From Betaproteobacteria bacterium (GTDB lineage: Bacteria > Pseudomonadota > Gammaproteobacteria > Burkholderiales > CAIKXV01): DNA of 33,728 nt. Shown piece by piece: positions 6,552-33,328 of the stretch; the first letter of the stretch is position 1, and each line of letters opens with the position of its first letter. The stretch is taken from positions 1-33,728 of the forward strand of contig CANHBC010000017.1 in assembly GCA_947458835.1 (NCBI GenBank). The letters run 5' to 3'. The notes below the pieces were generated by a model. The model was not told the DNA's origin and ran no database searches. It saw only the letters and a list, made by a program, of their open reading frames with translations. Made by a program: the position numbers and the translations under genes.

Positions 6552-7451
6552 ATGTCCCAGACCCTCGCCCTGAACGGCGGCACCCTGCGCCAGTTCTTCG
6601 AACTGACCAAGCCGCGCGTGGTGTCGCTGATCGTGTTCACCGCGGTGATCGGCATGTTCCTGGCGACCCAGCCCGGGACGTTGCCGCCGCTGTCTCCGGT
6701 GCTGTTCGCGACGATCGGCATTGCGCTGGTCGCAGGCGCTGCCGCCGCGGTCAACTGCCTGATCGAACAGAAGATCGATGCGGTCATGGCGCGCACGCGG
6801 GGCCGCCCGCTGCCCAGCGGCAACGTCAATTCGCTGCAGACGCTGGTCTTCGCCGGCCTGGTGGGCGGCGTCGGCCTGCTGGTGCTGCACAACCTGGTGA
6901 ACACCCTGACGATGTGGCTCACGCTCGCCACCTTCGTCGGCTACGCGATCATCTACACCGTGGTGCTCAAGCCGCTGACCCCGCAGAACATCGTGATCGG
7001 CGGGGCGTCCGGCGCGATGCCGCCGGTGCTCGGCTGGGCGGCCATCACCGGCGAGGTATCGCCGGCGGCGCTGGTGCTGTTCCTGATCATCTTCGCCTGG
7101 ACGCCGCCGCACTTCTGGGCGCTCGCGCTGTATCGCAAGCACGAATACGCGAAGGCTGGCATCCCGATGCTGCCGGTGACCCATGGCGACCGCTTCACGC
7201 TGCTGTCGGTCCTGCTCTACACGGTGATCCTGTTCGCCTGCTCGCTGCTGCCCTTTGCCATCCGCATGAGCGGCTGGCTGTACATGGCCTCGGCGGTGGT
7301 GCTGGGTGGGGTGTTCCTCTGGTATGCATGGCGGCTGTACACCAACTACAGCGACTGGCTCGCGCGGCGGACCTTCCGCTACTCGATCCTGTACCTGACG
7401 CTGATCTTTGCCGCCCTGCTGCTGGACCACTACGCGCCCTGGAACTACTAG
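6552..7451 (+). CDS. ctaB: Heme O synthase (protoheme IX farnesyltransferase)
   Basis: A UbiA-superfamily membrane prenyltransferase of 299 residues that adds a farnesyl group to protoheme to give heme O, the substrate of CtaA. The first Asp-rich motif is N68-x3-E72-x3-D76 followed by [11 protein letters not shown]. The NxxxExxxD form is common in betaproteobacterial CtaB. The second cytoplasmic loop has the [20 protein letters not shown] segment and the downstream [10 protein letters not shown] motif with its conserved histidine. Nine hydrophobic helices can be traced. It is the last cta gene. From memory, relatives have sco1 and then rpoH next; here an unrelated 12.5-kb block follows. Confidence 0.96.
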
Positions 7452-7500
7452 AACAGCGGGGCGCACCGAAGCTGCGCAGGCAACGAGGAGGAGACGCGCG

Positions 7501-8913
7501 ATGAGCCGTACCACGGGCAAGCCCGGGCATGCCACCGAGCCGGTATCGGAACTGATGCAGGCGCTGGCATCCTACATAGCTGCGACGCCACGACGTCCGC
7601 TCCCCGCGGCGGTATCCGAGCGGGCCAAGCTGCACCTGCTCGACACGATCGCCGCGATGATCTCCGGCGCACCGCTGCTGCCAGGTCGGCGTGCGATCGA
7701 GTACGTCACCGCGATGGGCGGTACGCCCGAGGCGACGATCCTCACGACCGGCACCCGTACCAGCGCGGTCAACGCGGCGCTCGCCAACGGCATGCTCGCG
7801 CATGCCGACGAGACCGACGACGCCTACTATCTCGCGCTGGTGCACCCGGGCTGCAGCATCGTGCCGGCCGCGCTGGCGATGGCCGAGCGGCAGAAGTCGA
7901 GCGGGCGCGAACTGCTGCGTGCGATCGTCCTCGGCTACGACGTATGCGCGCGCACCTCGATGGCGCTGGGCATCGAGCATTTCCGCAGCGCCGGTCACTC
8001 CACGCACAGCTTCGGCGGTACCTTCGGTTCGGCCGCTGCGGCCGGTGCGCTGGCGCGCATCGACGTGCGCCAGGCTCGCCACCTGCTGTCGTACGCAGCG
8101 CAGCAGGCGAGCGGCCTGTCGTGCTGGGCGCGCGACGTCGAGCATGTCGAGAAGGCCTTCGACTTCGGCGGCATGCCGGCGCGCAACGGCGTGACCGCGG
8201 CGACCATGGTGGCCGCCGGCTTCACCGGCGTGGAGGACGTGTTCAGCGGCGACCGCGGCTTCCTGCACGCGTTCCAGCCGTTCATCCGGCCCCGCGAGTT
8301 CGTCAAGGGCCTGGGCTCGCGCTACGACATCCTGCAGACCGCGATCAAGCGCTGGCCCGTCGGCTATCCGATCCAGGCGCCGCTCGATGCACTCTCGACG
8401 CTGATCGACCGGCACGGCATCCGCGCCGGCGAGGTCGAGAAGGTTCACATCACGGTCGACGAGCAGGGCGCCCGCACGGTCAGCGGCCGCAAGATGTCCA
8501 ACATCAACCTGCAGCACCTGGTCGCGATCATGCTGCTCGACGGTGACATCAGCTTCGAGGCTTCGCACGACCCGTCGCGTTCGCGTGACCGCGACGTCCT
8601 CGCGCTCAAGGACAAGGTCGAGCTCGTCGGCAGTGCAGCACTGTCAAAGACGAAGACCACCCAGGCGATCGTCGAGGTCACGCTGGCCCGGCCGGCGGGA
8701 CGCTCGCGAAGCACCGTCGTGCGCCACCATACCCGCGCAGTGCTGGGAAGCGCCACCCGGCCGATGGATCGCGCTGACCTCGAGCGCAAGTGCCGGCCCC
8801 TGCTGGAGCCGGCGCTCGGAGCGCGGCGGGCAGCGTCGCTGGTCGAGGCCGTCTGGACGATCGACGGGCTCGATGACGTGCGCGCGCTGCGCCGGCTGCT
8901 CAGTCGGCCTTGA
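7501..8913 (+). CDS. MmgE/PrpD family protein
   Basis: A 470-residue member of the MmgE/PrpD fold, which includes 2-methylcitrate dehydratase, aconitate decarboxylase and many uncharacterised dehydratases or isomerases. The helical domain shows LHLLDTIAAMISG (about 43-55), ANGMLAHADETDD (about 97-109) and GYDVCAR. The second domain carries KRWPVGYPIQAPLDAL, in the place of the usual 'K.yp.c...h' segment. The substrate cannot be read from sequence. No other methylcitrate-cycle gene (prpB, prpC) is nearby, so propionate use is not supported. GAGGAG lies about 8 bases before the ATG. The 3' end overlaps the convergent receptor gene by 14 bases. Confidence 0.86.
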   Translation: MSRTTGKPGHATEPVSELMQALASYIAATPRRPLPAAVSERAKLHLLDTIAAMISGAPLLPGRRAIEYVTAMGGTPEATILTTGTRTSAVNAALANGMLAHADETDDAYYLALVHPGCSIVPAALAMAERQKSSGRELLRAIVLGYDVCARTSMALGIEHFRSAGHSTHSFGGTFGSAAAAGALARIDVRQARHLLSYAAQQASGLSCWARDVEHVEKAFDFGGMPARNGVTAATMVAAGFTGVEDVFSGDRGFLHAFQPFIRPREFVKGLGSRYDILQTAIKRWPVGYPIQAPLDALSTLIDRHGIRAGEVEKVHITVDEQGARTVSGRKMSNINLQHLVAIMLLDGDISFEASHDPSRSRDRDVLALKDKVELVGSAALSKTKTTQAIVEVTLARPAGRSRSTVVRHHTRAVLGSATRPMDRADLERKCRPLLEPALGARRAASLVEAVWTIDGLDDVRALRRLLSRP

Positions 8914-9907
8914 TGCCGGCCTTGCGGACCACCTGCGCGATGCGCTGGGTCTCGCTCCGGATGATGGCGGCGAATTGCTGCGGCGTGTTGCCCACCGGCT
9001 CGGCACCCTCGCTCGCCAGCGCCGGCTTCAGTTCCGGGCTGTGCACTGCGCGCACCGCCTCGGCGTTGAGGCGGGCGATGATCGGCGCTGGCGTGCCGGC
9101 TGGCGCAAGGAACCCGGTCCACTGGACATGTTCGTAACCGGCCACGCCGGCCTCGGCAATGGCGGGCACGTCGGGCAGGGCGAAGCTGCGCCGCGTGGTG
9201 GTGACGCCCAGCGCACGCAGCTTGCCGGCGCGGACCTGCGACAGCACCGACGGCAGGGTGGCGAACGAGACCTGAGCTTCGCCGGCGAGCAGTGCGTTGA
9301 CCGACGGGCCACCGCCCTTGTAGGGCACATGAAGCAGGTCGGCACCGGTGAGGTTCTTGAACAGCTCGGCCGACAGGTGGGTTCCGGTACCGCTGCCGGC
9401 GGAACTGTAGGCGAGCTGGCCGGGCTTCGCTCGGGCGAGCGCGAGCAGCTCCTGCACGTTGCGCACAGGCAGCGCGACGTTGGCTACCAGCACGTTCGGG
9501 AATGCCGAGAGCTGGGTGATCGGTGCCAGGTCGCGCTGCGGGTCGAACGACAGCTTCGCATGCATGTTCGGGTTGATGGTGATCGACGAGGACACCACCA
9601 GCGTGGTGTAGCCGTCCGGGCTGGCGCGCACCGCGAGCTCGGTGCCGACCAGGCTGCCGGCCCCCGGTCGGTTGTCGATCAGCACCGCCTGGCCCAGCGC
9701 CTCGCCCAGCCGTGCCGCGAGCAGCCGGGCCATCGCGTCGGTGGAGCCGCCGGGCGATTGCGGCACGATGATGCGCACCGCCTTCTGCGGCCAGGCCTGG
9801 GCCTGTGCCGCAGCCGGCAGCACCAGCAGGACCGCTGCTGCAGCGGCGCTCGCGCCACCGGGGCGAAGCTGGATGCGCCACGACGGCGCGGACCCGTGCC
9901 TTCCCAT
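8900..9907 (-). CDS. Bug/TctC-type periplasmic solute-binding receptor (1 of 6)
   Basis: A 335-residue secreted receptor of the tripartite tricarboxylate transporter receptor (Bug) family. It has a long N-region and a signal peptide ending near AAAQAQA (about residue 38). The mature protein shows the family's ligand loops: IIVPQSPGGSTDAMARLL, IDNRPGAGSLVGTE, YSSAGSGTGTHLSAE and HVPYKGGGPSVNALL. Bug proteins bind small carboxylates or related anions, and the ligand cannot be predicted here. GGAGGAGG lies 5 bases before the ATG at 9907. It is divergent from the SMP-30-like gene (45-base gap) and tail-to-tail with the PrpD-like gene. No membrane components (TctA, TctB) are in the window. Confidence 0.93.
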   Translation of the reverse strand: MGRHGSAPSWRIQLRPGGASAAAAAVLLVLPAAAQAQAWPQKAVRIIVPQSPGGSTDAMARLLAARLGEALGQAVLIDNRPGAGSLVGTELAVRASPDGYTTLVVSSSITINPNMHAKLSFDPQRDLAPITQLSAFPNVLVANVALPVRNVQELLALARAKPGQLAYSSAGSGTGTHLSAELFKNLTGADLLHVPYKGGGPSVNALLAGEAQVSFATLPSVLSQVRAGKLRALGVTTTRRSFALPDVPAIAEAGVAGYEHVQWTGFLAPAGTPAPIIARLNAEAVRAVHSPELKPALASEGAEPVGNTPQQFAAIIRSETQRIAQVVRKAGIKAD

Positions 9908-9952
9908 TGCCTCCTCCTCGCTTCGCTGTCTTGTTTTCAATAGGATAGACCC

Positions 9953-10873
9953 ATGCGCTTCTTCAATCCACCGACCGAAATCGTCGCGGAAGTGTTCGCG
10001 ACCATCCCCGCCCACCTCGGCAAGTCGGGACAGCCGTCGACCTGGATCGAGTCCAACCATCCGGGCTCTAAGCTCGGCTGCTTCCTCGAAGGGCCGGCGT
10101 TCGACCGCGCGGGCAACCTGTACGTCGTCGACATCCCGTTCGGGCGTATCTTCCGCATCACCCCCGATGCGCAGGTGAGCGTCGCCGCCGAGTACGACGG
10201 CTGGCCCAACGGCCTGGCCGTGCACAAGGACGGCCGGCTGTTCATCACCGACTACCGCCTCGGCTTGATGACCTGCGATCCGTCCACCGGCAAGGTCGAA
10301 CCGTGGATCACCCACGCCCGCTCCGAAGGCTTCAAGGGCGTCAACGACCTGGTGTTCGCCAGCAACGGCGACCTGTACTTCACCGACCAGGGACAGACCG
10401 GCGTGCACGACCAGACCGGACGCGTGTGGCGCGCGACGCCCGACCGCCGGCTGGAGTGCCTGATCGACAACGGGCCCAGCCCGAACGGGATCGCGCTGTC
10501 GCCGGACGAGTCGGCGGTATACGTGGCGATGACCCGTACCAACTGCATGTGGCACCTGCCGCTGCGCGACGGCGTGCCGAGCAAGTGTGGCGTTTTCGGC
10601 TACCTGCCGGGGATGCATGGGCCGGACGGCCTGGCGGTCGACGCCAAGGGCAACCTGGCGGTCGGCCATGCGCGGGTCGGCATCGTGTGGCTGATGAGCC
10701 CGGCCGGCGAGTTCCTCTACGGCATTCGCGCCCCCGACGGCGGCGGACGCCTGACCAACATGGCCTACGGTGGACCGGAGGGCCGGCACCTGTACATCAC
10801 CGACTCCTACCGCGGCACCATCCTGCGCGCGGAACTGCCGGTGCCCGGTCTCAAGCTCTACTCCCACCAGTGA
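9953..10873 (+). CDS. SMP-30/gluconolactonase-like (LRE family) six-bladed propeller protein
   Basis: A 306-residue cytoplasmic beta-propeller of the SMP-30/gluconolactonase/LRE-like region family, probably a metal-dependent lactone hydrolase. Likely metal ligands by family pattern are E46 (FLEGPAFD), N131 or D132 (GVNDLVF), N178 (PSPNGIALSPDE) and D225 (GPDGLAVD). Blade repeats such as NLYVVDIPFGRIFRITPD and DLYFTDQGQTG are clear. No signal peptide is seen. AGGAT lies just upstream of the ATG. It is first in a plus-strand run with two Bug receptors and an ACMSD-like amidohydrolase, so a lactone intermediate of the same organic-acid route is a reasonable guess. Confidence 0.88.
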   Translation: MRFFNPPTEIVAEVFATIPAHLGKSGQPSTWIESNHPGSKLGCFLEGPAFDRAGNLYVVDIPFGRIFRITPDAQVSVAAEYDGWPNGLAVHKDGRLFITDYRLGLMTCDPSTGKVEPWITHARSEGFKGVNDLVFASNGDLYFTDQGQTGVHDQTGRVWRATPDRRLECLIDNGPSPNGIALSPDESAVYVAMTRTNCMWHLPLRDGVPSKCGVFGYLPGMHGPDGLAVDAKGNLAVGHARVGIVWLMSPAGEFLYGIRAPDGGGRLTNMAYGGPEGRHLYITDSYRGTILRAELPVPGLKLYSHQ

Positions 10874-10964
10874 TGCGCCACGGCCACCGCGGCGGCATGC
10901 CTGCCAACGATCGTATCCCGGACTGCTCGCGGGCCGACGGATGCGCGACACCGAGGAGGACCCC

Positions 10965-11966
10965 ATGAAGCCATCCACCGACCGTGCGCAGGCGGTGCAG
11001 GTCCTGCGCCGCCTGGCCGTCGTCTGTGCCGCGGCGATGCTGCCGTCGCTGGCTGCCGCCCAGGCACCGGCATGGCCGGCGAAGCCGGTACGCATCATCG
11101 TGCCGACCTCTCCCGGAGGCGGGACCGACATCGTCACCCGGCTGCTCGCGCAGCGGCTCTCCGATGTGTTCGGGCAGCCGGTGCTGGTCGAGAACCGGCC
11201 GGGGGCAGGCCAGGTGCTGGGCACCGAGTTCGTCGCGCGTGCGGCGCCGGACGGCTACACCCAGCTGATGGCCGCCAGCGCGATCGTCCTCAACCAGGTG
11301 CTGGCGAAGAAGCCGCCGTACGACACGTTGCGCGACTTTGTCCCGGTGACGCTGGCCGCCTCGCTGCCGAACGTGCTGACCGTGCATCCGAGCCTGCCGG
11401 TCCGCAACCTGAAGGAACTGCTGGCGCTTGCTCGGTCGAGGCCAGGGGCACTCAACTACAGTTCGGCCGGCTCCGGCACCTCGCCGCACATGTCGATGGA
11501 ACTGCTGCTGTCGATGGCGAAGATCGACATCACCCACATCGCCTACAAGGGCACCGGGCCGGCGACCACCGACCTGCTGGCAGGCCACGTCCAGCTGTCC
11601 ATGCCCAATACCCTGACCGCGGCGCAGCACCTGCGTACCGGGCGCCTGCGTGCGCTCGGGGTGACCAGCGCGAAGCGGGCGGCCGGCCTGCCGGGGGTGC
11701 CTAGCCTCGCCGAGGCTGGGTTGCCCGGCTACGAAGCGATCCAGTGGTACGCGCTGTTCGCCCCGGCAGGCACGCCACGCGACGCCGTCAACCGGATGCA
11801 GGCCGAGTCGGCCCGCGCCCTGCAGGCCGCCGACATGCGCGAGCGGCTCGCGACCGACGGCGCCGAGCCGGGTGGCCTGTCGCCGGAGGCCTTCGCGGCC
11901 TTCGTGAAGGCCGAGATCGAGAAGTGGAGCCGCGTCGTACGCGATGCGAAGCTCGCGCTGGACTGA
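10965..11966 (+). CDS. Bug/TctC-type periplasmic receptor (2 of 6)
   Basis: A 333-residue Bug-family receptor. The signal peptide is basic then hydrophobic (VLRRLAVVCAAAMLPSLAAAQA, cleavage near residue 31-32). The mature protein carries VPTSPGGGTDIVTRLL, ENRPGAGQVLGTEF, NYSSAGSGTSPH and HIAYKGTGPATTDLL. A strong GAGGAGGA precedes the ATG at 10965; an upstream in-frame extension into the SMP-30 end is less likely. It lies 91 bases after the lactonase-like gene and 49 bases before a near twin. The mature parts of the two proteins align without gaps at roughly 70-75% identity by eye, which marks a fairly recent tandem duplication. Confidence 0.93.
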   Translation: MKPSTDRAQAVQVLRRLAVVCAAAMLPSLAAAQAPAWPAKPVRIIVPTSPGGGTDIVTRLLAQRLSDVFGQPVLVENRPGAGQVLGTEFVARAAPDGYTQLMAASAIVLNQVLAKKPPYDTLRDFVPVTLAASLPNVLTVHPSLPVRNLKELLALARSRPGALNYSSAGSGTSPHMSMELLLSMAKIDITHIAYKGTGPATTDLLAGHVQLSMPNTLTAAQHLRTGRLRALGVTSAKRAAGLPGVPSLAEAGLPGYEAIQWYALFAPAGTPRDAVNRMQAESARALQAADMRERLATDGAEPGGLSPEAFAAFVKAEIEKWSRVVRDAKLALD

Positions 11967-12015
11967 ACCGCATCCGGACGCACGGATCGAACCGAACCGA
12001 AAGGCGACGCAACCG

Positions 12016-13020
12016 ATGATCGCAGCAGCTTTCCCTCGTTCCCGGCCGGGCACGTCCGCGCGGCTTGCCGTGGCCGCCCTCGCGCTGTGCCTGCCCGCGG
12101 CGGCGCTTGCCCAGCCGGCACCCTCCTGGCCTGCCAAGCCGGTGCGCATCATCGTACCCACCTCACCCGGGGGCGGTACGGACATCGTCACCCGCGTGCT
12201 CGCCACCCGAGTGGGCGAGGCATTGGGCCAGTCGGTGGTGGTCGAGAACCGTCCCGGTGCCGGGCAGGTGCTGGGCACCGAGTTCGTCGCCCGTGCCCCT
12301 GCCGACGGCTACACCCAGCTGATGGCGGCCAGCGCTATCGTGCTCAACCAGGTGCTGGCGAAGCAGCCGCCCTATGACATCCTGCGCGACTTCGTGCCGG
12401 TGACGCTGGCCGCGTCCCTGCCGCATGTGCTGACGGTGCACCCCAGCCTGCCGGTGAAGTCGGTGAAGGAACTGGTCTCGCTGGCCCGCGCGCGACCGGG
12501 CCAGCTCAACTACAGCTCGGCCGGGGCCGGCACTTCGCTGCACATGGCGATGGAGCTGTTCCTGTCGATGGCACGCCTGGACATCGTGCACGTGCCGTAC
12601 AAGGGTGCGGGTCCGGCCACCGCCGACCTGCTCGCCGGCCACGTGCAGCTCGCCACGCCCAACACGCTGACCGTCGCGCCCTACCTGCGATCCGGGCGGC
12701 TGCGCGCGATCGGCGTGACGGGCGCGAAGCGGGCGGCTGCGCTGCCCGAGGTGCCGACCATCGCCGAGGCCGGCGTGCCGGGCTACGAGGCCATCTTCTG
12801 GTATGCGCTGTTCGCGCCGGCGGGCACGCCGCGCGAGGCGGTGGGCCGCATGCACGCCGAGGTGGCGAAGGCACTTCGCCTGCCCGACGTCGGGCAGCGC
12901 CTCGCGGCCGACGGCGCGGAACCGGGCGGCATGCCGCCGGATGCGTTTGCCGCGTTCATCCGCACCGAGCTCGACAAGTGGGCGAAGGTGGTGCGTACCG
13001 CGAAGATCACGCTCAACTGA
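12016..13020 (+). CDS. Bug/TctC-type periplasmic receptor (3 of 6), tandem paralogue
   Basis: A 334-residue Bug-family receptor with a signal peptide ending near LPAAALAQPA (about residue 33). It shares long identical stretches with the preceding gene, such as VRIIVPTSPGGGTDIVTR and DGYTQLMAASAIVLNQVLAK. Differences cluster in the SAG loop (SAGAGTSLHMAME against SAGSGTSPHMSME) and in the second lobe around EAIFWYALF, so ligand range may have shifted. No strong ribosome site is seen: AAAGG at 11999-12003 is 12 bases away. Translation may rely partly on the upstream gene. The amidohydrolase starts 9 bases after its stop. Confidence 0.93.
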   Translation: MIAAAFPRSRPGTSARLAVAALALCLPAAALAQPAPSWPAKPVRIIVPTSPGGGTDIVTRVLATRVGEALGQSVVVENRPGAGQVLGTEFVARAPADGYTQLMAASAIVLNQVLAKQPPYDILRDFVPVTLAASLPHVLTVHPSLPVKSVKELVSLARARPGQLNYSSAGAGTSLHMAMELFLSMARLDIVHVPYKGAGPATADLLAGHVQLATPNTLTVAPYLRSGRLRAIGVTGAKRAAALPEVPTIAEAGVPGYEAIFWYALFAPAGTPREAVGRMHAEVAKALRLPDVGQRLAADGAEPGGMPPDAFAAFIRTELDKWAKVVRTAKITLN

Positions 13021-13029
13021 GGGCCGACC

Positions 13030-14016
13030 ATGAAGAACATCGACACCCACGCGCACTTCTTCCCCGAGCGCTTCATCGAACTGGTGGCGAAGCACGGGGG
13101 ACGCTGTGGCACCACGGTCACCAGCGACGCCAGCGGTGCGCGCTTCATCCAGGTGGGCCTGAACCTGCGCACCGGGCCGATCACTTCGGGCTTTATCGAC
13201 CTGGGCGAGCGGCTGGCCTACATGGACCGCATGGGCATCGACATGCACGCGCTGTCGATGACCCAGCCGATGGTCTACTGGGCCGACGACGAACTCGGCC
13301 TGCAGCTCTCGCAGGCAGTGAACGACGCGATCAGTGCCGCGCATGTCGCGCATCCGGACCGCTTCATCGGCTTCGCCCACCTGCCGTTCCAGAACCCCAG
13401 CCTCGCGCTGGAGGAACTCGAGCGGGCGGCGAAGCTGCCCGGCATCCGTGGCGTCTACATGGCGACGGCGGTGCGCGACCGGGAACTCTCCGACCGCAGC
13501 TTCTTCCCGGTCTACGAGCGCATGGCCGACCTCGGGCTGCCGCTGTTCCTGCATCCGATGATGATCAACAACGAGCGGATGAAGCAGTGGTACCTGATCA
13601 ACACGCTCGGCAACCCGTTCGAGGTGGCGCTCGCTGCCTCGCACCTGATCTTCGGCGGCGTGCTCGACGCGTTCCCGAAGCTCGAGGTGTCGCTGCCGCA
13701 TGCCGGCGGCGCGCTGCCGATCCTGCGCGGTCGCCTCGACCAGGGCTTCAAGGTGCGTCCGGAATGCAAGCACCTGCCGCGCCCGCCCAGCGAGTACCTC
13801 AAGCGCTTCACCTACGACACGATCAGCTACTGCCCCGAGGTGATGGACTACCTGGTGAAGCTGGTCGGCGTCGACCGCATCCTGATGGGCAGCGACTACT
13901 GCTTCGATATCGCGCACAACGACCCGGTAGGGGTCGTGCACGAGATCAGCGTGCTCGACGAGGCCGGCAAGCGTGCGGTGTTCTGGGACAACGCGGCGCG
14001 CCTGCTGCGCCTCTGA
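13030..14016 (+). CDS. ACMSD-like amidohydrolase/decarboxylase
   Basis: A 328-residue TIM-barrel protein of the amidohydrolase-2 family, closest in layout to aminocarboxymuconate semialdehyde decarboxylase (ACMSD) and related nonoxidative decarboxylases and hydratases. Metal and active-site residues are visible: H7 and H9 (DTHAHFF), H175 (LFLHP), H224 (LPHAGG) and D289 (GSDYCFD). The FGGVLDAFPKLEVSLPHAGG segment is typical of ACMSD-type enzymes. ACMSD proper removes CO2 from a kynurenine-pathway intermediate, but no kynurenine genes are nearby. A decarboxylase or hydratase acting on an aromatic ring-cleavage product is the better guess. It is last in the run that begins with the SMP-30-like gene. 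Confidence 0.87.
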   Translation: MKNIDTHAHFFPERFIELVAKHGGRCGTTVTSDASGARFIQVGLNLRTGPITSGFIDLGERLAYMDRMGIDMHALSMTQPMVYWADDELGLQLSQAVNDAISAAHVAHPDRFIGFAHLPFQNPSLALEELERAAKLPGIRGVYMATAVRDRELSDRSFFPVYERMADLGLPLFLHPMMINNERMKQWYLINTLGNPFEVALAASHLIFGGVLDAFPKLEVSLPHAGGALPILRGRLDQGFKVRPECKHLPRPPSEYLKRFTYDTISYCPEVMDYLVKLVGVDRILMGSDYCFDIAHNDPVGVVHEISVLDEAGKRAVFWDNAARLLRL

Positions 14017-14024
14017 CGATCCCA

Positions 14025-14041
14025 CCGCCCATGGAGGGCGG
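14025..14041. terminator. Short hairpin between convergent genes
   Basis: Inverted repeat CCGCCC - ATGGA - GGGCGG in the 34-base gap between the amidohydrolase (plus) and the lyase (minus). The stem is only 6 bp and has no T-run, but it is well placed to end both transcripts. Confidence 0.3.
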
Positions 14042-14050
14042 GCCGGAGGG

Positions 14051-15442
14051 CTACGTGCCCGCCTGCCCGTCCGTGGGCACCGGCCCGCCGCGGCCGGGCA
14101 GGCGGGCGGCAGCCTCGCGTGCGGCCGCTGCCATCTCGCGAGCCATCTCGGCGCTGCGCCCGGTGTATCCGCCCGGATCGAGCGCCGTGCGCAGCGCCGG
14201 TTCGTCCACCGCCGTGCGCACGCGCGGGTCGGCGAGCAACTGGTCGACGAGCGGGCCACCGTTGGCCAGTGCCTCCGCCAGCGCGTGGTGCAACAGGTCG
14301 TGCGCCTCTCCACGGCCGAGCGCTGGCGCGAGCAGCATCATTGCGTTCTCCGCGGCGATCGCGCCTCCCGAGCGTTCGAGGTTGCGCCGCATCCGGTCCG
14401 GATGCAGCCGCAGGCAGGCGAGCAACTGGTCCATCTCCCAGGCGACCGCGTAGGCGAGTGGTCCCGTGCCTTCCATCAGCCAGTACATCATCTGGTTGTT
14501 GGCGGCATCGCCTTCGTGCGTGGGCTGCATGGCCTCGAGGGCCATCGGAACCTGGCCGCGCAGTCGGCCGGCCAGCGCAATGACCTGCACCGCGATCTTC
14601 GAATTCACCTTCTGCGGCATCGTGCTGGAACCGACGACGTCCTTGCCCAGTGACTCTGACACTTCCTCGATCTCGTCGGCCATCAGCGCATAGAGTTCGC
14701 GCGCGATCTTCGAGAACGTCGTGCCCAGCAACGCCAGCAGCATCACGTACTCCGCCACGTGGTCGGTGCCGGCACGCGAGGGCACCACGAGCGGCGCGAG
14801 TCCGAGGCGCTCCGACAGTCGCCGGTTGACCTCCGGCCCGTGCTCGCCGAAGGCGTGCATCGCCCCCAGTGCGCCGCCCCACAGCGAGACGAACACTCGT
14901 GGCTCGGCGCCGCGAAGCCGGTCCACATGGCGCAGCAGTTCCTCGATCCACGCCGCGACCTTCAGCCCGAAGGTGATCGGAAGCGCATGTCGATGGTTGG
15001 TGCGTCCGGCCACGAGCATCCCGGCGCTGGCTTCGGCCAGACCGGCCATCCGGTCGAGGATGTCTCCCAGCAGCGCAAGCAGTGCATCATGTGCTTCGCG
15101 CATCAGCAGGGTGCGGCCGGTCTGCGTCAGGTTCTGGGTCGTTGCACCCCAGTGCACGAAGTCCCCCGCATCGCCCTCGCAGGCCTGCGCCAGCGCGCGC
15201 GCGATGGAGTGGATCGGCGCGCGGGTGCGCGCGATGTCGGCGGCGAGCGCCGCCGTGCCGATCGTCGCGAGGTTGGCCTTGCGCCGGATCTCGACCGCCG
15301 CCGCCGCCGGGATCATGCCCAGTTCGGCCTGGACCTCCGCCAGCGTGGCCTCGATGTCCAGGAACGCCTGCCAGAGGCGCTCACGGCTGAACAGCGCTTC
15401 GATCGCAGCGACGTCCGGGCGGGCGCGCCGTGCTGAAGGCAC
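14051..15442 (-). CDS. Fumarase/aspartase superfamily lyase, 3-carboxy-cis,cis-muconate cycloisomerase-like
   Basis: A 463-residue all-helical lyase. Numbering from the GTG at 15442, the superfamily signature GSSTMPQKVN is at 271-280 and FVHWGATTQN at about 95-104. The segment GRTNHRHALPITFGLK (146-161) matches the CMLE/PcaB pattern (GRTxxxHALPxTFG) better than adenylosuccinate lyase, whose first catalytic histidine is Asn149 here. The GTG at 15442 is preferred because GAGGAG lies 9 bases upstream. A GTG at 15472 gives ten more residues but has no ribosome site and sits in an 11-bp tandem repeat. It is probably co-transcribed with the two upstream minus-strand Bug genes. A house-keeping purB role is unlikely in this setting. 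Confidence 0.84.
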   Translation of the reverse strand: MPSARRARPDVAAIEALFSRERLWQAFLDIEATLAEVQAELGMIPAAAAVEIRRKANLATIGTAALAADIARTRAPIHSIARALAQACEGDAGDFVHWGATTQNLTQTGRTLLMREAHDALLALLGDILDRMAGLAEASAGMLVAGRTNHRHALPITFGLKVAAWIEELLRHVDRLRGAEPRVFVSLWGGALGAMHAFGEHGPEVNRRLSERLGLAPLVVPSRAGTDHVAEYVMLLALLGTTFSKIARELYALMADEIEEVSESLGKDVVGSSTMPQKVNSKIAVQVIALAGRLRGQVPMALEAMQPTHEGDAANNQMMYWLMEGTGPLAYAVAWEMDQLLACLRLHPDRMRRNLERSGGAIAAENAMMLLAPALGRGEAHDLLHHALAEALANGGPLVDQLLADPRVRTAVDEPALRTALDPGGYTGRSAEMAREMAAAAREAAARLPGRGGPVPTDGQAGT

Positions 15443-15464
15443 TGCGGACGACTCCTCGGGCGTA

Positions 15465-15497
15465 GGGATCACTTCGGGATCACTTCGGGGTCAGTTC
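15465..15497. repeat. 11-bp tandem repeat at a Bug/lyase junction
   Basis: GGGATCACTTC occurs twice in tandem (15465-15475 and 15476-15486), with a degenerate third copy (GGGTCAGTTC, 15488-15497) that overlaps the receptor's stop codon. On the minus strand each full copy presents a GTG, which duplicates a possible start codon for the lyase in different frames. It may have arisen by slippage. Confidence 0.6.
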
Positions 15498-16480
15498 GGT
15501 TGCACCTGCGCGAACTTCACGACCTTGGCCCACTTGGCGGTCTCGCTGCGGATCAGCTCCGCAAACTGTTCGGGCGTTCCGGCCACCGGCACGGCACCGA
15601 GGGAACCGTAGCGCTCGATGACCACCGGTGACCTGACCGCCCGCTGCATCTCCGCGTTCAGTCGGTCGAGGACGGGTCGGGGAATGCCAGCGGGTGCGAG
15701 GATGCCACCCCAGGTCATCACCTCGTAGCCTGGGACGCCTGACTCCGCCACCGTCGGCAACTCGGGATAGGCAGTCAGCCGCTTGCGTCCGGTCACCGCC
15801 AGTGCGCGCAGCCGACCCGATTGCAGATGCACGCCCACCCCGGTGAGCGGATCGAACAGCATCTGGACATGCCCGGCCATCACGTCAGCCGTGGCCTGCC
15901 CGCCGCCCTTGTAGGGCACGTGCAGGATGCTCGTGCCGGTGAGCATCTTGAAGTACTCGCCTGCAAGGTGGCCGATGGTGCCGGTCCCGGCCGACGCGTT
16001 GCTCAGTTCGCCCGGGCGTTTGCGGGCGAGCGCAATCAGGCTCTTGATGTCCTTGACGGGTAGCGCAGTCGTCACCGCCAGCAGCAGGGCGGCCTCCACG
16101 GCCTGCGACACCGGCTGGAAGTCACGGGCGACGTTGTAGGGCAGTGCTGGCGTGATCGCGGGGTTGATGGCAAGCGGCCCTGGCCCGGCATAGCCGATCA
16201 CGTAGCCATCCGGTACGGCCGCAGCCAGCGCCTGCATGCCGATCGCGCCGCCCGCGCCGGCCCGGTTGTCGGCCACCACCTGCTGGCCCGTCTGCTTCGC
16301 GAGCTCCGTGCCGAACAGGCGCGCCGAGACATCGGTGGCGCTGCCCGCGGCGAACGGGATGATCAGGCGGATCGGCTTGCCCGGAAACTCGGCCGCCGCC
16401 GACCATGCCGTGTCTGCGCCGGCGACAAGGCCGGCGCAGATCGCGACTGCACCGAACAGCGAGCGGACATCGGGGTTCAT
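15491..16480 (-). CDS. Bug/TctC-type periplasmic receptor (4 of 6)
   Basis: A 329-residue Bug-family receptor with a signal peptide (LFGAVAICAGLVAGADTAWSA, cleavage near residue 28). Ligand loops are IIPFAAGSATDVSARLF, DNRAGAGGAIGMQ, NASAGTGTIGHLAGE and HVPYKGGGQATADVM. The first loop has AAGSATD rather than the SPGGxTD of receptors 1-3, so it is a different subfamily and probably binds a different ligand. ATG at 16480 is chosen over GTG at 16489 because AGGAG lies 8 bases before it. It lies upstream of the cycloisomerase-like lyase on the same strand. Upstream, a -10-like TAGAAT (minus strand, about 16539-16544) may belong to its promoter. Confidence 0.92.
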   Translation of the reverse strand: MNPDVRSLFGAVAICAGLVAGADTAWSAAAEFPGKPIRLIIPFAAGSATDVSARLFGTELAKQTGQQVVADNRAGAGGAIGMQALAAAVPDGYVIGYAGPGPLAINPAITPALPYNVARDFQPVSQAVEAALLLAVTTALPVKDIKSLIALARKRPGELSNASAGTGTIGHLAGEYFKMLTGTSILHVPYKGGGQATADVMAGHVQMLFDPLTGVGVHLQSGRLRALAVTGRKRLTAYPELPTVAESGVPGYEVMTWGGILAPAGIPRPVLDRLNAEMQRAVRSPVVIERYGSLGAVPVAGTPEQFAELIRSETAKWAKVVKFAQVQPN

Positions 16481-16500
16481 GGCGGGCACTCCTCTGCTTG

Positions 16501-16515
16501 CGGTCGGTCGGTCGG
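16501..16515. repeat. Short tetranucleotide run (CGGT)3-CGG
   Basis: Three full and one partial CGGT units lie in the leader of receptor 4, between its ribosome site and the TAGAAT box. It is short, so copy-number switching is possible but weakly supported. Confidence 0.45.
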
Positions 16516-16619
16516 CGGCTGAATCTCCCGACAGGTCATTCTAGCGCGCATCGGCAGGCGTACCCGCGACGCACAAAAGAGGGTGCACGCCGCAGCGCGC
16601 CAGCGGGCTCGACCGTCGT

Positions 16620-17627
16620 TCAGTCGCCCTTGAGCCCGGAGGCCGCGATCACCTTGCGCCACTTCGCCATCTCGTCGCGCAGGAAGGCCGCGAACGCGGC
16701 TGGCGTCGAACCGATCCCGTCGATGCCCTGCGCCGCGAAGCGCTCGCGCACCTCAGGCGTGGCCAGGGTCTTCACCAGCGCCTCGTGCAGCCGCGCCACC
16801 ACCGGCTTCGGCAGGCCGGTCGGGCCGACGAAGCCGTACCAGCCACTGGTGTCGTAGCGGAAGCCCGCCTCCTGGATGGTCGGCAGTTCTGGCAGCAGGT
16901 TCGAGCGCTTCGTACCGGCCATCGCGATGGCGCGCAGCTTGCCGGCGCGCACCTGCGGCAGTGCCGAAGAGATGCCGTTGAACATCAGGTCGACCTCGCC
17001 GGCGATCAGCGCGCCCATGCCGGGTCCGGCGCCCTTGTAAGGCACGTGGACGACCTTCAGCCCGGCCACCAGGTTGAACAGCTCGGCGGCCATGTGGATG
17101 CCGGTGCCCGGGCCGCCCGAGGCGAAGTTCATCTGCCCCGGCCGCGCGCGCGCCAGCGCGACCAGCTCCTGTACCGTCTTTGCCTGCACCGACGGATGCA
17201 CGATCAGCACGTAGGCCTGCTCGGCGACCAGCGACAGCGCGGTGAAGTCGCGCATCGGGTCGTAGGACGGTTTCGACTGGCGCAGCGGCTCGATCGCCAG
17301 CGGGCCCGAGTGGCTGATCATCACGGTATAGCCGTCGGGCTGGCTGCGCGCGACGATCTCGGCACCGATCCCGCCGCCTGCGCCCGCGCGGTTGTCCGCG
17401 ACCAGCGGCTGCCCGATCGCCTCTCCGTAGTGCTGCGCGACGATGCGCGAGACGATGTCCGCGGGCCCACCGGGCGAGGCGGGGATCATGAGCCGGATGG
17501 GGCGGGTGGGGAAAGCCTGCGCCGCGGCCTCGGTGGCGCAGGGCCCTGCCGCGCACAGCACGGCTGCAAGCGTGGCAGCGCCGCGTCGGGCATCCAGTGC
17601 GGCTTTCGCCGTCTTCGGGGATGTCAT
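16620..17627 (-). CDS. Bug/TctC-type periplasmic receptor (5 of 6)
   Basis: A 335-residue Bug-family receptor. A signal peptide with LAAVLCAAGPCATEAAAQA ends near residue 38. Loops are LMIPASPGGPADIVSRIV, DNRAGAGGGIGAE, NFASGGPGTGIHMAAE and HVPYKGAGPGMGALI. AGGAGGAAT precedes the ATG at 17627. It is first in a minus-strand run (receptor 5, receptor 4, lyase) and divergent from the Gfo/Idh oxidoreductase across a 170-base region. Its loops differ from those of the other five, so it is not part of the recent tandem pair. Ligand unknown. Confidence 0.93.
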   Translation of the reverse strand: MTSPKTAKAALDARRGAATLAAVLCAAGPCATEAAAQAFPTRPIRLMIPASPGGPADIVSRIVAQHYGEAIGQPLVADNRAGAGGGIGAEIVARSQPDGYTVMISHSGPLAIEPLRQSKPSYDPMRDFTALSLVAEQAYVLIVHPSVQAKTVQELVALARARPGQMNFASGGPGTGIHMAAELFNLVAGLKVVHVPYKGAGPGMGALIAGEVDLMFNGISSALPQVRAGKLRAIAMAGTKRSNLLPELPTIQEAGFRYDTSGWYGFVGPTGLPKPVVARLHEALVKTLATPEVRERFAAQGIDGIGSTPAAFAAFLRDEMAKWRKVIAASGLKGD

Positions 17628-17797
17628 GGGTCGTATTCCTCCTCTGGGTCGATGGTGACCCCGCCAGCCAGCGCGGTCAACCGGCCGGCCAACGGCCGTG
17701 CGGCCGGTCGGGCGAGAGGCTCGGTGTGGGCGACGCAGCGGGCGGGCCCGGCGCGTATCATCGCGGCCAGTCCAGTCCATGCATTGAGGAGGAGAAG
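17628..17797. promoter_or_regulatory. Divergent intergenic region with palindrome, receptor 5 / Gfo-Idh
   Basis: A 170-base gap between two divergent starts. It holds an inverted repeat ACCGGCCG (17680-17687) and CGGCCGGT (17701-17708) with a 13-base spacer, within a run of GGCC-rich palindromic sequence. It also has a -10-like TATCAT (17756-17761) facing the oxidoreductase but no good -35. The palindrome could be an operator shared by both directions. No regulator gene is adjacent, so this is inference. Confidence 0.35.
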
Positions 17798-18880
17798 GTG
17801 AGCACCAGGCCCCTGGGCGTCGCCGTGGTAGGTGCCGGACGCATCGGCACCCTGCGCGCACGCCTGTCAGCGAAACATCCGTCGGTCGGCTTCCTCGCGA
17901 TCTCCGACATCGATCCGTCGCGCGCCCAGGCGCTGGCGAAGACCGCAGGTGCCGACTTCTCCAGCGGCAGCAACAACGAAGTGATCGAGCGTCCCGAGGT
18001 CAACGCGGTGTTCGTGTCCACGCCCGAGGGCGAGCATGTCGCGCCGATCATCCGCGCGCTCGAACTGGGCAAGCCGGTGCTGGTCGAGAAGCCGATCGCG
18101 CTCGAACTGGGCGACGCTCAGCGCATCGTCGATGCGATCCGAGCCAACGACGGCAACCTGCGCATCGGCTACAGCCGGCGCTTCAAGGAGTGCTTCCTGC
18201 GCGCCAAGGAGCAGATGAACCATGGCCGGCTCGGCACGGTCGTGGGTGGGCTGGCGCGGGTCTACAACTCGCGCGCCCAGGCGTTCTCGATCCTGAAGCG
18301 CGACCCCCACGCGACGCCGGTGCTCGACGTGCTGACCTACTACGTCGACCTGATGTGCTGGTTCCTCGAGGGCAACCGGCCAGTCGAGGTGGTCGCGCGC
18401 GGCCAGCACGGGATCTTCAAGAAGGCGGGCTACAGTGCCCACGACGTCACCTGGGCCATCGTCACCTTCGCCGACGGCGCGGTGATCAACTTCGGCGTGA
18501 GCTACGCACTGCCGGCGCAGTACCCGACCCTCGGCCAGTCGGACCGGGTCGAACTGCTCGGTACCGAAGGCACGATGATCATCGACGACGACCACATGGA
18601 CCACCTGATCTACTCGGAGAAGGGTATCCCGCACGCCTACGTGCCCGACCATGGCGTGCCGTTCGCGTTCCTCGGCAGCAACACCGCCGGCGACTGGGCG
18701 CTGGGCGACTTCTGGGGGCCGCTCGGCAATGAGACGCGCAGCTGGCTCGATTCGCTGGTCACCGGTGCGCAGACGCCACACTGCCGGCCGGATGCCGCGC
18801 TGGTCAACCTGGAGACGACGATCGCGATGGAGCGTTCCGCGCGCTCCGGGCAGGCGGTGCGCCTGCCACTGGAAACCTGA
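17798..18880 (+). CDS. Gfo/Idh/MocA family NAD(P)-dependent oxidoreductase
   Basis: A 360-residue two-domain dehydrogenase. The N-terminal Rossmann fold has VVGAGRIGTLRARL (GxGxxG at about residues 12-17). The family's EKP motif is at 97-99 (LVEKPIALE), with K98 the usual catalytic lysine. In the second domain the typical D-x3-H pair (as in DLGIH) is D177-VLT-Y181, so the histidine is replaced by tyrosine. Most members oxidise sugars or inositols; a few, such as LigC, act on aromatic ring-fission products. The GTG start at 17798 follows GAGGAGGAG by 3 bases (core GAGGAG about 6 away). Receptor 6 follows after 13 bases, so the two are probably co-expressed. Confidence 0.9.
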   Translation: MSTRPLGVAVVGAGRIGTLRARLSAKHPSVGFLAISDIDPSRAQALAKTAGADFSSGSNNEVIERPEVNAVFVSTPEGEHVAPIIRALELGKPVLVEKPIALELGDAQRIVDAIRANDGNLRIGYSRRFKECFLRAKEQMNHGRLGTVVGGLARVYNSRAQAFSILKRDPHATPVLDVLTYYVDLMCWFLEGNRPVEVVARGQHGIFKKAGYSAHDVTWAIVTFADGAVINFGVSYALPAQYPTLGQSDRVELLGTEGTMIIDDDHMDHLIYSEKGIPHAYVPDHGVPFAFLGSNTAGDWALGDFWGPLGNETRSWLDSLVTGAQTPHCRPDAALVNLETTIAMERSARSGQAVRLPLET

Positions 18881-18893
18881 GGACACCGCGTAC

Positions 18894-19913
18894 ATGGAGA
18901 GCATCAACCGCAACACCCCCTGGCGCGCGAAGGCCGCGCCGGCTATCGCCTGTGCAGCGCTGGGCATCGCCCTGCTCCCGGCCGTGCCTGCGCCAGCCAC
19001 CGCGCAGCAGGCCTACCCGTCGCGTCCCGTGCGGCTGGTCTCACCGAACCCGCCTGGCGGGGCGAACGACGTGATCGCCCGCATCGTGGTCAACCGGCTG
19101 GCCGAGGTCCTCGGCGTTCCGATGGTGATCGACAACCGGGGCGGGGCCGGCGGCACGATCGGCGGGGAGATCGCGGCGCGTGCGGTGCCCGACGGCTACA
19201 CGCTGCTCGCGGGTTCCATCTCGACGCATTCGTTTTCGCCGGTGATCTCACCCAAGCTCGCCTACGACCCGATCCGCGACTTCACCCCGGTCTCGCTCTT
19301 CGCGATCTCGCAGAACCTGCTGGTGGTCAACCCGACGCTGCCGGTGAACAGCGTGAAGGACCTGGTGGCGCTGGCGAAGGCCAGGCCGAACAGCCTGAAC
19401 TACGCCTCGGGCGGTACCGGTTCGACCAGCCACTTCGCGATCGCCCTGTTCGTGAGCGCGGCCGGTATCGTGAACGCCACGGTGCACGTGCCCTACAAGG
19501 GTGGCGCACCGTCGGTGGCGGCGACCGTATCCAACGAGACCCAGTTCTACTTCGGACCGATGGCCGGCAGCATCCCGCAGGTCAAGGCCGGGCGCCTGCG
19601 GGCGGTTGCCGTGGGCGGCGCGGCGCGTTCGGCGCTGATGCCCGATGTGCCCACCGTGCGCGAGTCGGGCGTCAACTACGCGGCGGCGGGCTGGTTCGGC
19701 CTGCTCGGTCCGGCCGGCCTGCCCAGGCCGATCGTGCAGCGGTTGAACAAGGCCGTGCACGATACGGTCGCTATGCCCGACGTGCAGCGCCAGCTGCTGG
19801 AGGTCGGCGCCGAAGGCGTGGTCAATACGCCCGAGGCATTCGCGAAGTTCATCGCCGAACAGCTCGACAGCACACGGCGCGTGGTGAAGGAGCTAGGGCT
19901 GAAGTTCGACTGA
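18894..19913 (+). CDS. Bug/TctC-type periplasmic receptor (6 of 6)
   Basis: A 339-residue Bug-family receptor with a basic N-region, a hydrophobic core (IACAALGIALLPAVPAPA) and cleavage near ATAQQA (residue 40-41). Loops are LVSPNPPGGANDVIARIV, DNRGGAGGTIGGE, NYASGGTGSTSHFAI and HVPYKGGAPSVAATV. PNPPGGAND in place of P.SPGG.TD is a distinct variant. It lies 13 bases after the Gfo/Idh gene, which suggests the oxidoreductase acts on its ligand or a derivative. A weak ribosome site (GAGGA at 18879-18883) overlaps the upstream stop codon. It is the last gene before the 26-bp-arm palindrome and the rpoH block. Confidence 0.93.
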   Translation: MESINRNTPWRAKAAPAIACAALGIALLPAVPAPATAQQAYPSRPVRLVSPNPPGGANDVIARIVVNRLAEVLGVPMVIDNRGGAGGTIGGEIAARAVPDGYTLLAGSISTHSFSPVISPKLAYDPIRDFTPVSLFAISQNLLVVNPTLPVNSVKDLVALAKARPNSLNYASGGTGSTSHFAIALFVSAAGIVNATVHVPYKGGAPSVAATVSNETQFYFGPMAGSIPQVKAGRLRAVAVGGAARSALMPDVPTVRESGVNYAAAGWFGLLGPAGLPRPIVQRLNKAVHDTVAMPDVQRQLLEVGAEGVVNTPEAFAKFIAEQLDSTRRVVKELGLKFD

Positions 19914-19923
19914 GCAGGAAGCC

Positions 19924-19978
19924 TGGGGTCAGGTCTTGCCTTTTGCCTCGAAGAGGCAAAAGGCAAGACCTGACCCCA
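19924..19978. repeat. Perfect long palindrome (26-bp arms, 3-base loop), REP-like or terminator
   Basis: Left arm 19924-19949 (begins TGGGGTCAGGTCTTGCC) and right arm 19953-19978 are exact reverse complements around a GAA loop. It sits in the 70-base gap between the convergent receptor 6 and rpoH. The core GGTCAGGTCTTGC resembles, from memory, dispersed elements linked to REP-associated tyrosine transposases in Proteobacteria. As RNA it would form a very stable hairpin from either strand, so it could end both transcripts. It is far longer and more perfect than a usual intrinsic terminator, and it marks the right edge of the metabolic block. Confidence 0.85.
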
Positions 19979-19983
19979 ACGTT

Positions 19984-20889
19984 TTAAGCTGCTTCCTTCA
20001 GGCTGGCCCGGATTTTCTGCATCGCCTTCTGCTCGATCTGGCGGATGCGCTCGGCTGACACGCCGAACTCGTCCGCGAGTTCGTGCAGGGTCGAGCCGCT
20101 GCCTTCCTGCAGCCAGCGGGCTTCGATGATCCGGCGGCTGCGCTCGTCGAGGCTGGCCAGTGCGTCGGCCAGGCCAGCCTGGCGCAGCTTCGCGGTCTGG
20201 GCCTGTTCGAGCTGCACTGCCGGGCTCGCGCCCGGATCGGCGAGGTAGGAGATCGGGCCGAACGAGGATTCATCGTCCTCGCCGCCCACCGGCTCGAGCG
20301 AGACGTCGTGTCCGCCCATGCGGGTCTCCATCTCGACCACGTCCTCGTTGCGCACGCCCAGGGTCCTGGCCATGCTGGCGACTTCTGCCGGGCCGAGGGT
20401 GCCGTGCGCCTGCTTCATGCTGCGCAGGTTGAAGAACAGCTTGCGCTGTGCCTTGGTGGTGGCGACCTTCACGATGCGCCAGTTCTTCAGGATGTACTCG
20501 TGCATCTCGGCGCGGATCCAGTGCACCGCGAACGAGACCAGCCGTACGCCGCGCTCCGGGTCGAAGCGCTTCACCGCCTTCATCAGGCCGATGTTGCCTT
20601 CCTGGATCAGGTCGGCCTGCTGCAACCCGTAACCCATGTACCCGCGGGCGACGGACACCACCACGCGCAGGTGCGACATCACCAGCTCGCGGGCGGCTGC
20701 GAGGTCGTCCTGGTCGCGCAGTCGGCGCGCAAGTTCGGTCTCGCGCTCGGGCGTGAGCATCGGCAGACGGTTGACCGTCTGGATGTAGGTCTCGAGGCTG
20801 CCCGCAGCCAGTGAAGGCAGCACGGTGGCGAACAGCGGGTTGGCGGCAGCGGGCAGGGCAGCGGTGGGGAAAGCGACAGCGGTGGTCAT
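19984..20889 (-). CDS. rpoH: RNA polymerase heat-shock sigma factor sigma-32
   Basis: A 301-residue group-3 sigma factor that directs RNA polymerase to heat-shock promoters. Region 2 is clear (LIQEGNIGLMKAVKRFDPER, 95-113). The RpoH box QRKLFFNLR is at 148-156 and separates it from housekeeping sigma factors. Region 4 ends with the helix-turn-helix LADEFGVSAERIRQIEQKAM. The ATG at 20889 is chosen for AGGAGG 7-8 bases upstream; longer in-frame starts would run through the leader hairpin and the CIRCE site. It lies downstream of ftsYEX in the same direction, but a 248-base gap carries its own control region. Confidence 0.97.
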   Translation of the reverse strand: MTTAVAFPTAALPAAANPLFATVLPSLAAGSLETYIQTVNRLPMLTPERETELARRLRDQDDLAAARELVMSHLRVVVSVARGYMGYGLQQADLIQEGNIGLMKAVKRFDPERGVRLVSFAVHWIRAEMHEYILKNWRIVKVATTKAQRKLFFNLRSMKQAHGTLGPAEVASMARTLGVRNEDVVEMETRMGGHDVSLEPVGGEDDESSFGPISYLADPGASPAVQLEQAQTAKLRQAGLADALASLDERSRRIIEARWLQEGSGSTLHELADEFGVSAERIRQIEQKAMQKIRASLKEAA

Positions 20890-20909
20890 GGGTGCGCCTC
20901 CTTGGACGG

Positions 20910-20930
20910 ACGGCCCGCACCGCGGGCCGT
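20910..20930 (-). promoter_or_regulatory. Leader hairpin just upstream of the rpoH ribosome site
   Basis: Perfect 9-bp inverted repeat (ACGGCCCGC - ACC - GCGGGCCGT on the plus strand). In the rpoH mRNA the hairpin would end 6 bases before the AGGAGG site. It could limit ribosome access or transcript elongation. There is no T-run, and no pairing to the ribosome site itself was found, so a thermosensor role is only a guess. Confidence 0.5.
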
Positions 20931-20966
20931 TTGTACGACACTGGAACGGCTCTGGATGAACCAACT

Positions 20967-20993
20967 TTAGCACTTAACGCAGCAGAGTGCTAA
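20967..20993. promoter_or_regulatory. CIRCE operator (HrcA site) upstream of rpoH
   Basis: TTAGCACTT - 9 bases - GAGTGCTAA. This matches the CIRCE consensus (TTAGCACTC-N9-GAGTGCTAA) at 17 of 18 arm positions with the exact spacer. It lies 78 bases before the rpoH ATG. On the minus strand its arms would overlap a possible promoter (TTAGCA-N18-TAAAGT), so HrcA binding would block rpoH transcription until heat or misfolded protein titrates GroEL away from HrcA. The site is seen directly; regulation follows from knowledge of HrcA/CIRCE; the promoter is inferred. Confidence 0.88.
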
Positions 20994-31375: not shown

Positions 31376-31447
31376 CAGTCTGCCTGGATCGAGGGAGTCG
31401 GTTGGCGGTGCGGGGAGGGCGGGTGGGCGCGCGCGGGGCGTGCGCGC

Positions 31448-32190: not shown

Positions 32191-32191
<1 letters not shown>
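31448..32191 (-). CDS. ABC-2 type permease (GldF-like)
   Basis: A 247-residue integral membrane protein with six predicted helices. It has the N-terminal amphipathic stretch of ABC-2 permeases (VAGKELRALFSSPLAWVVLA) and the cytoplasmic coupling segment RLIAEERRNQTMTFLISAPL, which is close to GldF and NosY proteins. The ATG shares one base with the stop of the ATPase gene, so the two are translationally coupled parts of one transporter. The substrate cannot be inferred: a nosDFY role is not supported because no nos genes are near, and gliding is not supported because other gld genes are absent. Confidence 0.9.
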
Positions 32192-33132
<941 letters not shown>

Positions 33133-33224
33133 CGATGGGCCAGTCGTGACGGTTGCATCAGCAGGGGAAGGGGGGCGATCGGATGAATCACGGCGCGGGG
33201 CGGGTTGCGGGTCACGGCCCCGCC

Positions 33225-33259: not shown

Positions 33260-33328
33260 TCACCGGCCGGACCTTTCCGCTGTCGTGGCGGCATGCGCGA
33301 CGGGCAGACAAGAACACGACCGGTCGGC

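Follow-up and report, generated by a model that had tools for sequence, protein, structure and literature searches.

Is a group of receptor and catabolism genes that stands between ctaB and rpoH, amid core genes, a recent acquisition of one genome or an old possession of its lineage? The question is raised by a stretch of 33,728 nucleotides (G000:C17:1-33728, hereafter the window) from a 3.76-Mb draft genome of the Burkholderiales in 257 contigs. Here, eleven genes (g1 to g11, hereafter the block), six coding for Bug/TctC receptors and five for enzyme-like proteins, separate the oxidase genes ending in ctaB from rpoH-ftsX-ftsE-ftsY. An earlier note, made from the letters alone, had given these coordinates, gene content and flanks, all of which were confirmed by Pfam profile matches, and had proposed an insertion in place of sco1 with a palindrome at its right edge. 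Our results favour, with a probability of about 0.83, a mosaic of genes for the uptake and catabolism of organic acids that is shared at the level of the genus and has long resided at the meeting point of two convergent core operons. The proposal of an insertion thus holds in that genes were added and sco1 is gone relative to the common layout, but the change is not specific to this genome.

Distribution of the block within the genus

Gene g1 lies directly after ctaB in each of the 10 other genus genomes. The interval from ctaB to rpoH is contained in one contig in four of these relatives, where it measures 9.7-15.8 kb. All eleven genes were found in the same order in G010 (12.7 kb), G005 (15.8 kb) and G009 (15.6 kb), and eight of them in G001 (9.7 kb), in which three were not found. 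For the remaining six relatives, known from partial contigs, the block is kept as far as the contigs reach; G004 and G008 have stretches without close counterparts of block genes that carry more distant Bug genes. Gene g11 is the block gene nearest to rpoH in every relative whose rpoH side was read (6/6; G010, G005, G009, G001, G004, and G008). About 3.2 kb of extra DNA, coding for a FIST protein and a hybrid histidine kinase, lies between g11 and rpoH in G005 and G009 (L024:1794-4945 and L025:1799-4839).

The neighbouring receptor genes g4 and g5 are 76% identical (225 of 298 residues). As G001, G004, and G008 each have a single close g4/g5 copy at the corresponding position, comparison of the sequences suggests a tandem duplication in the branch without these three genomes.

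Arrangement of ctaB and rpoH in other families

We searched 80 genomes (the window's own, the 10 others of its genus, and 69 others of the order) for ctaB, rpoH, and Sco. After exclusion of 17 non-genus genomes with no full-length ctaB, 52 were left. The two anchors share a contig in 39 of them and are convergent within 20 kb in 30. The gap between the convergent genes is 0.6-0.9 kb and contains sco1 in 15 of the 30 pairs, 69-86 bases with no Sco match in three, 1.2-2.9 kb in seven, and 4.9-13.5 kb in five; it is hence shorter than 3 kb in 25. No block gene was seen in the four long intervals read (G023, G025, G059, and G037) of the five, G019 being outside those read. In the G023 interval (L039:5646-13980) there are a cbb3-type oxidase cluster and a gene for a metal-transport ATPase, and that of G025 holds unrelated enzymes.

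A further sample was drawn from the 592 ctaB relatives found in a named genome collection, of which the best 80 were kept, 78 of them from outside the genus; the other two, G010 and G001, are not independent of the first sample. Among the 78 non-genus loci, rpoH lies within 1 kb of ctaB in 29, at 1-2.4 kb in eight and at about 7 kb in two, while in 39 no rpoH was recognised in the stretch, some stretches being short. The block was present at none of these 78 loci, drawn from the best 80 of 592 relatives; two carry one Bug-like gene, of 50% identity.

Results of both searches showed that other families of the order commonly have ctaB-sco1-rpoH, with some 0.7 kb between ctaB and rpoH, and the contents of long ctaB-rpoH intervals vary among families. 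The order that the earlier note had given is therefore real. The check that it proposed, whether close relatives have the three genes directly joined, turned out negative in the genus and positive only in other families. Among the loci read, the location of the block between ctaB and rpoH is peculiar to this genus.

A different neighbourhood was observed in G138, a genome of another family (L236, G138:C5:33000-52999): ctaB-sco1 is followed by a Bug gene, major facilitator superfamily transporters, further Bug genes, and a luciferase-like monooxygenase, and rpoH was not found within the 20 kb read. Since a family that shares parts of the block has a Bug gene directly after ctaB-sco1, the convergent ctaB/rpoH ends might be a recurrent landing site for receptor-catabolism gene groups. 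We regard this as unlikely, as the long intervals of other families hold other contents.

Fate of sco1

No sco1 was found between ctaB and rpoH in the window, and the only SCO1-SenC match of the genome is located on another contig, C14; its absence from the interval had been reported correctly. One Sco match was detected in 9 of the 11 genus genomes, on a contig other than that of ctaB, and none in the other two searched (G003 and G008). In all six genus neighbourhoods read, the gene is flanked by an isocitrate/isopropylmalate-type dehydrogenase and an amidase; two more loci were too short. A tree of 39 Sco proteins, in which many inner branches are weak, places the eight genus copies within a large group holding 19 ctaB-adjacent Sco proteins and apart from six secondary copies. 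The simpler reading of this tree is that the old sco1 was relocated within the genome.

Counterparts of block genes, composition, and trees

Potential single donors were searched for with g6 in 200 genomes of the order and with g10, g3, and g1 in 300 each, covering four of the eleven genes. These searches found no single donor, only scattered counterparts or partial groups. For g6, counterparts of 70-71% were detected in G138 and G175 (family f46) and in G147 (f6), on contigs other than that of ctaB; two of the stretches hold distant Bug genes (36-55%) and one a distant PrpD (28%), and close block neighbours were not found beside the g6 counterpart in any of the three. Counterparts of g10 (79-82%) occur in four genomes of a genus of family f46, designated g46 (G055, G098, G208, and G237), and are adjoined by a g11-like Bug gene (62-65%) in G098, G208, and G237. 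The same genus has PrpD (62-65%), Bug, and SGL (63-65%) genes together in each of three loci read (G055, G098, and G237), and G105 has a PrpD of 68% with Bug genes on either side and no SGL. Neither ctaB nor rpoH lies in the g46 stretches carrying these counterparts; in G055 they are on contigs other than that of ctaB, and the location of ctaB in G098, G208, and G237 was outside the search. Because counterparts of PrpD-Bug-SGL and of g10-g11 stand at separate loci in another family, the comparison favours assembly of the block from parts.

The earlier note had judged the base composition of the block similar to that of its flanks, and the codon comparison it called for agrees. Mean G+C content at third codon positions is 0.891 for the 11 block genes vs. 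0.909 for 19 flank genes, codon frequencies of block and flanks correlate at 0.995, and block genes lie slightly nearer to the flank mean than flank genes do (distance of 0.065 vs. 0.078; p = 0.02). We thus see no sign of a foreign source in codon use. Of the suggestion that the transfer is old or that a relative was the donor, the age fits our data, but a foreign donor left no such sign.

Unrooted trees of ctaA+ctaB and of g1+g3, each from ten genomes, both set G001, G004, and G008 apart from the others (support of 88 and 100, respectively), and topologies were compared with the approximately unbiased (AU) test. When five genes of the block were compared with four of the flanks in six genomes, the topology of the flanks was not rejected for the block (p = 0.11, one direction only). 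Descent with the genus would be the simplest reading of these trees. The earlier note had named the same eleven genes across a whole family, with matching phylogeny, as the sign of ancestral and vertical inheritance. All eleven genes are indeed present in three of the four spanning relatives, and eight in the fourth, but the trees match only broadly.

The palindrome at the right edge

The palindrome noticed next to rpoH is real, with a 26-bp stem (z score of -12.6; none of 200 shuffles as good), and does lie at the right edge. Its 15-base half-site occurs in 81 copies (up to one mismatch) on 31 contigs of the genome, compared with 0 for the reversed control; the half-sites form 28 inverted pairs, 18 of which are 35-39 bases apart. 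The window has two exact half-sites only, at 19925 and 19963. An exact copy of the repeat was not found at the left block junction in a search limited to this repeat, other shared end repeats not being searched for. The repeat is missing at the g11-rpoH junction in G010, while in G009 a copy follows g11. G005 (L024, ~1700-1830) carries a variant repeat with a different core sequence beside the rpoH stop.

The element has inverted copies of a repetitive extragenic palindromic (REP) sequence that form a hairpin, many per genome, and a candidate gene for a cognate REP-associated tyrosine transposase (RAYT) is present; it may thus be assigned to the REP doublets forming hairpins (REPINs). Of the two Y1_Tnp genes in the genome, the one on C20 has repeat copies on both sides, and no exact copy was found within the 3.3 kb available around the one on C140. 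Since the palindrome belongs to a dispersed repeat family and is absent at the junction in G010, it is best read as a separate arrival that marks no edge of the block.

Origin of the block

In the proposed course of events, an ancestor probably carried an unbroken ctaB-sco1-rpoH in which ctaB and rpoH converged. Then, before the sampled members of the genus diverged, sco1 would have left the interval and several small 'receptor plus enzyme' groups would have gathered between the convergent ends, presumably by insertion; the order of these steps, too, is our inference. Afterwards, the block would have been inherited with the genus, with the tandem duplication of g4/g5, loss or non-gain of three genes in G001, and extra insertions such as the FIST and hybrid kinase genes of G005 and G009.

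Several results weigh against a long-resident mosaic. The genus genomes are fragmented drafts, and six of the ten relatives do not span the interval. The family of this genus (f1) is represented by no other genus in the 80 genomes searched, so that the event can be traced back to the genus only. The genus Sco copies group most closely (97/99) with a long-branched Sco protein of G072 that is not adjacent to ctaB, and the old sco1 may have been replaced by another Sco copy. Two of the three topology tests reject identical trees: for g1+g3 the ctaA+ctaB topology is rejected by the AU test (p = 0.0066), as is the g1+g3 topology for ctaA+ctaB (p = 3.6e-5). As block and flank trees differ, some exchange of block genes inside the genus is possible. 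Moreover, no g11 counterpart lies beside the g10 counterpart in G055 or beside a 78% copy in G064. The PrpD-Bug-SGL cluster of genus g46 also contains GFO (58-59%), amidohydrolase (34%), and further Bug genes. In the kinds of gene it holds it thus resembles the complete block, which might therefore descend from a single cluster of this type.

The whole block could accordingly have come at once into the ancestor of the genus, from an unsampled relative or as a relocated cluster, replacing sco1 simultaneously. The absence of the block at ctaB in the outside loci read, the loss of sco1 from the same interval, and the g46 cluster of the same gene kinds (PrpD, Bug, SGL, Bug, GFO, amidohydrolase) agree with this, and the codon match would be expected if the source was similar in composition or was the genus itself. 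We nevertheless consider arrival in one piece unlikely. Close counterparts of the eleven genes stand together in no outside stretch read; in g46 the closest g10 counterpart is apart from the PrpD-Bug-SGL cluster, whose own GFO and amidohydrolase are more distant at the values given above; and a Sco gene is still present elsewhere in the genome. Pfam gave no integrase or transposase domain for any of the eleven genes, and no tRNA was found in the window.

The same two negatives bear on the idea that the block is a genomic island gained recently by this strain alone and attached at the palindrome, which metabolic genes amid core genes and the long palindrome at the right edge might suggest. An island of this type, entered by site-specific integration, would be atypical in composition and patchy in presence. 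The composition of the block is that of its flanks, and the block is present at least partly in all ten relatives, while the supposed attachment mark is one of many scattered copies with no exact partner at the left junction. We therefore hold a recent island to be very improbable. A joining of unrelated pieces by faulty assembly or binning comes to mind with a draft of 257 contigs, yet it is less credible still, since matching junctions occur in several separate genomes, including the less fragmented G005 and G010 (~30 contigs each). A recent island, an attachment palindrome, foreign composition, and an assembly error were all rejected on the basis of the genus-wide block, the dispersed repeat, and flank-like codon use.

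The favoured event, a mosaic resident in the genus, is old, genus-wide, and of a familiar kind, and matters little by itself. It illustrates that a conserved neighbourhood found broken in a single genome may be broken throughout its genus, and that a conspicuous palindrome beside such a break may be a dispersed repeat with no connection to it.

Gene layout and identities

Features of the locus are listed in Table 1. Genes were identified by Pfam profile matches, and NCBIfam models and relatives in PDB were consulted for some of them. The left flank comprises cox1, ctaG, cox3, SURF1, ctaA, and ctaB. In the right flank, rpoH, ftsX, and ftsY are identified by sigma-70, FtsX, and SRP54 domains, respectively; for ftsE, Pfam gives only a general ATP-binding cassette (ABC) transporter domain and the name follows from position. 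The TctC domain (PF03401) was found in six of the eleven block genes with 220-266 bits vs. a curated cut-off of 27. None of the 16 NCBIfam models listed gave g7 a score that reached its cut-off. A plus-strand reading frame at 8543-9943 was rejected as a gene; its scanned part (8903-9943) had no family match, and the TctC domain lies on the opposite strand. Strand and spacing suggest about five transcription units: g1, g2, g3-g6, g9-g7, and g10-g11.

Further along the window (30017-33375), a minus-strand group codes for an ABC-2 type membrane protein, an ATPase, and an ABC_transp_aux protein, and may resemble gliding-type ABC systems.

Table 1. Features between and including the ctaB and rpoH anchors in the window (ACMS, 2-amino-3-carboxymuconate-6-semialdehyde; ACMSD, its decarboxylase).
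Feature	Position	Strand	Match
ctaB (UbiA family), left anchor	6552..7451	+	Pfam UbiA 8e-64
g1, MmgE/PrpD-family protein	7501..8913	+	Pfam MmgE_PrpD_N 3e-55
g2, Bug/TctC periplasmic receptor	8900..9898 (upstream end approximate)	-	TctC 9e-79 on reading frame 8900-11224
g3, SMP-30/gluconolactonase-like protein	9953..10873	+	Pfam SGL 4e-39
g4, Bug/TctC receptor	10965..11966 (start approximate)	+	TctC 3e-67
g5, Bug/TctC receptor	12016..13020 (start approximate)	+	TctC 4.5e-71
g6, Amidohydro_2 protein, relative of ACMS decarboxylase and 5-carboxyvanillate decarboxylase	13030..14016	+	Pfam 3e-35; PDB ACMSD 1.6e-50
g7, fumarase/aspartase-superfamily lyase (Lyase_1, ADSL_C)	14051..15472	-	Pfam 1.7e-32
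g8, Bug/TctC receptor	15491..16480	-	TctC 2e-65
g9, Bug/TctC receptor	16620..17627 (start approximate)	-	TctC 6e-67
g10, GFO/IDH/MocA oxidoreductase	17798..18880	+	Pfam 3e-22
g11, Bug/TctC receptor, paired with g10	18894..19913	+	TctC 3e-65
REPIN-type palindromic repeat, outside the block	19924..19978		26-bp stem
rpoH, right anchor	19984..20973	-	Pfam sigma-70 regions 1.2, 2 and 4

Likely role and comparison with known systems

The nearest relatives of solved structure are terephthalate-binding proteins for g4 (1e-68), ACMS and 5-carboxyvanillate decarboxylases for g6, and fumarate lyase, trans-aconitate decarboxylase, and carboxymuconate cycloisomerase (CMLE) for g7; for g10 no such relative was found at 1e-20. 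Judged from these relatives, the block most likely serves the uptake and breakdown of aromatic or aliphatic carboxylates. In the periplasm, the Bug receptors would bind carboxylates or aromatic acids and hand them over to carriers of the TctAB type, whose genes presumably lie elsewhere, and the adjoining lyase, decarboxylase-like, lactonase-like, and dehydrogenase-like enzymes would process the products. No Pfam match to TctA or TctB was found within the block, the rest of the genome not being searched for either; a complete tripartite tricarboxylate transporter, with both alongside the receptor, is thus not present in the block.

The likeness to terephthalate and aromatic-acid uptake by TctC-type receptors lies in g4, whose closest solved relatives bind terephthalate; the block includes no enzyme that is known to act on this compound. 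As for the setting in which such receptors might serve, PMC7597016 describes TctC genes of the Amazon River, with those of Betaproteobacteria enriched in freshwater or brackish parts, and hypothesises a link of TctC genes to the breakdown of land-derived organic matter.

The repeat beside rpoH compares with REPINs and their RAYTs, the anatomy of which is defined in PMC3116915. Like them, the short repeats of this genome are scattered, occur in inverted pairs, and form hairpins, and they flank the Y1_Tnp gene on C20 on either side; the copy in the window differs in lying outside the block, in the space between rpoH and its neighbour.

At least 46 TctC matches were found in each of the 11 genus genomes, from 236-576 first-look candidates, and 2 of 30 other genomes searched also reach this number. 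Expansions of these receptors are known; PMC5994714 reports a single genome with 434 of the genes, and expansions of lesser size in Bordetella, Comamonas, and Cupriavidus. The locus adds one more documented case of Bug receptor genes beside catabolic enzymes within a core neighbourhood, with sco1 elsewhere. It resembles the known expansions in the many receptor genes per genome, often beside other genes, and differs only in the place of the block between ctaB and rpoH.

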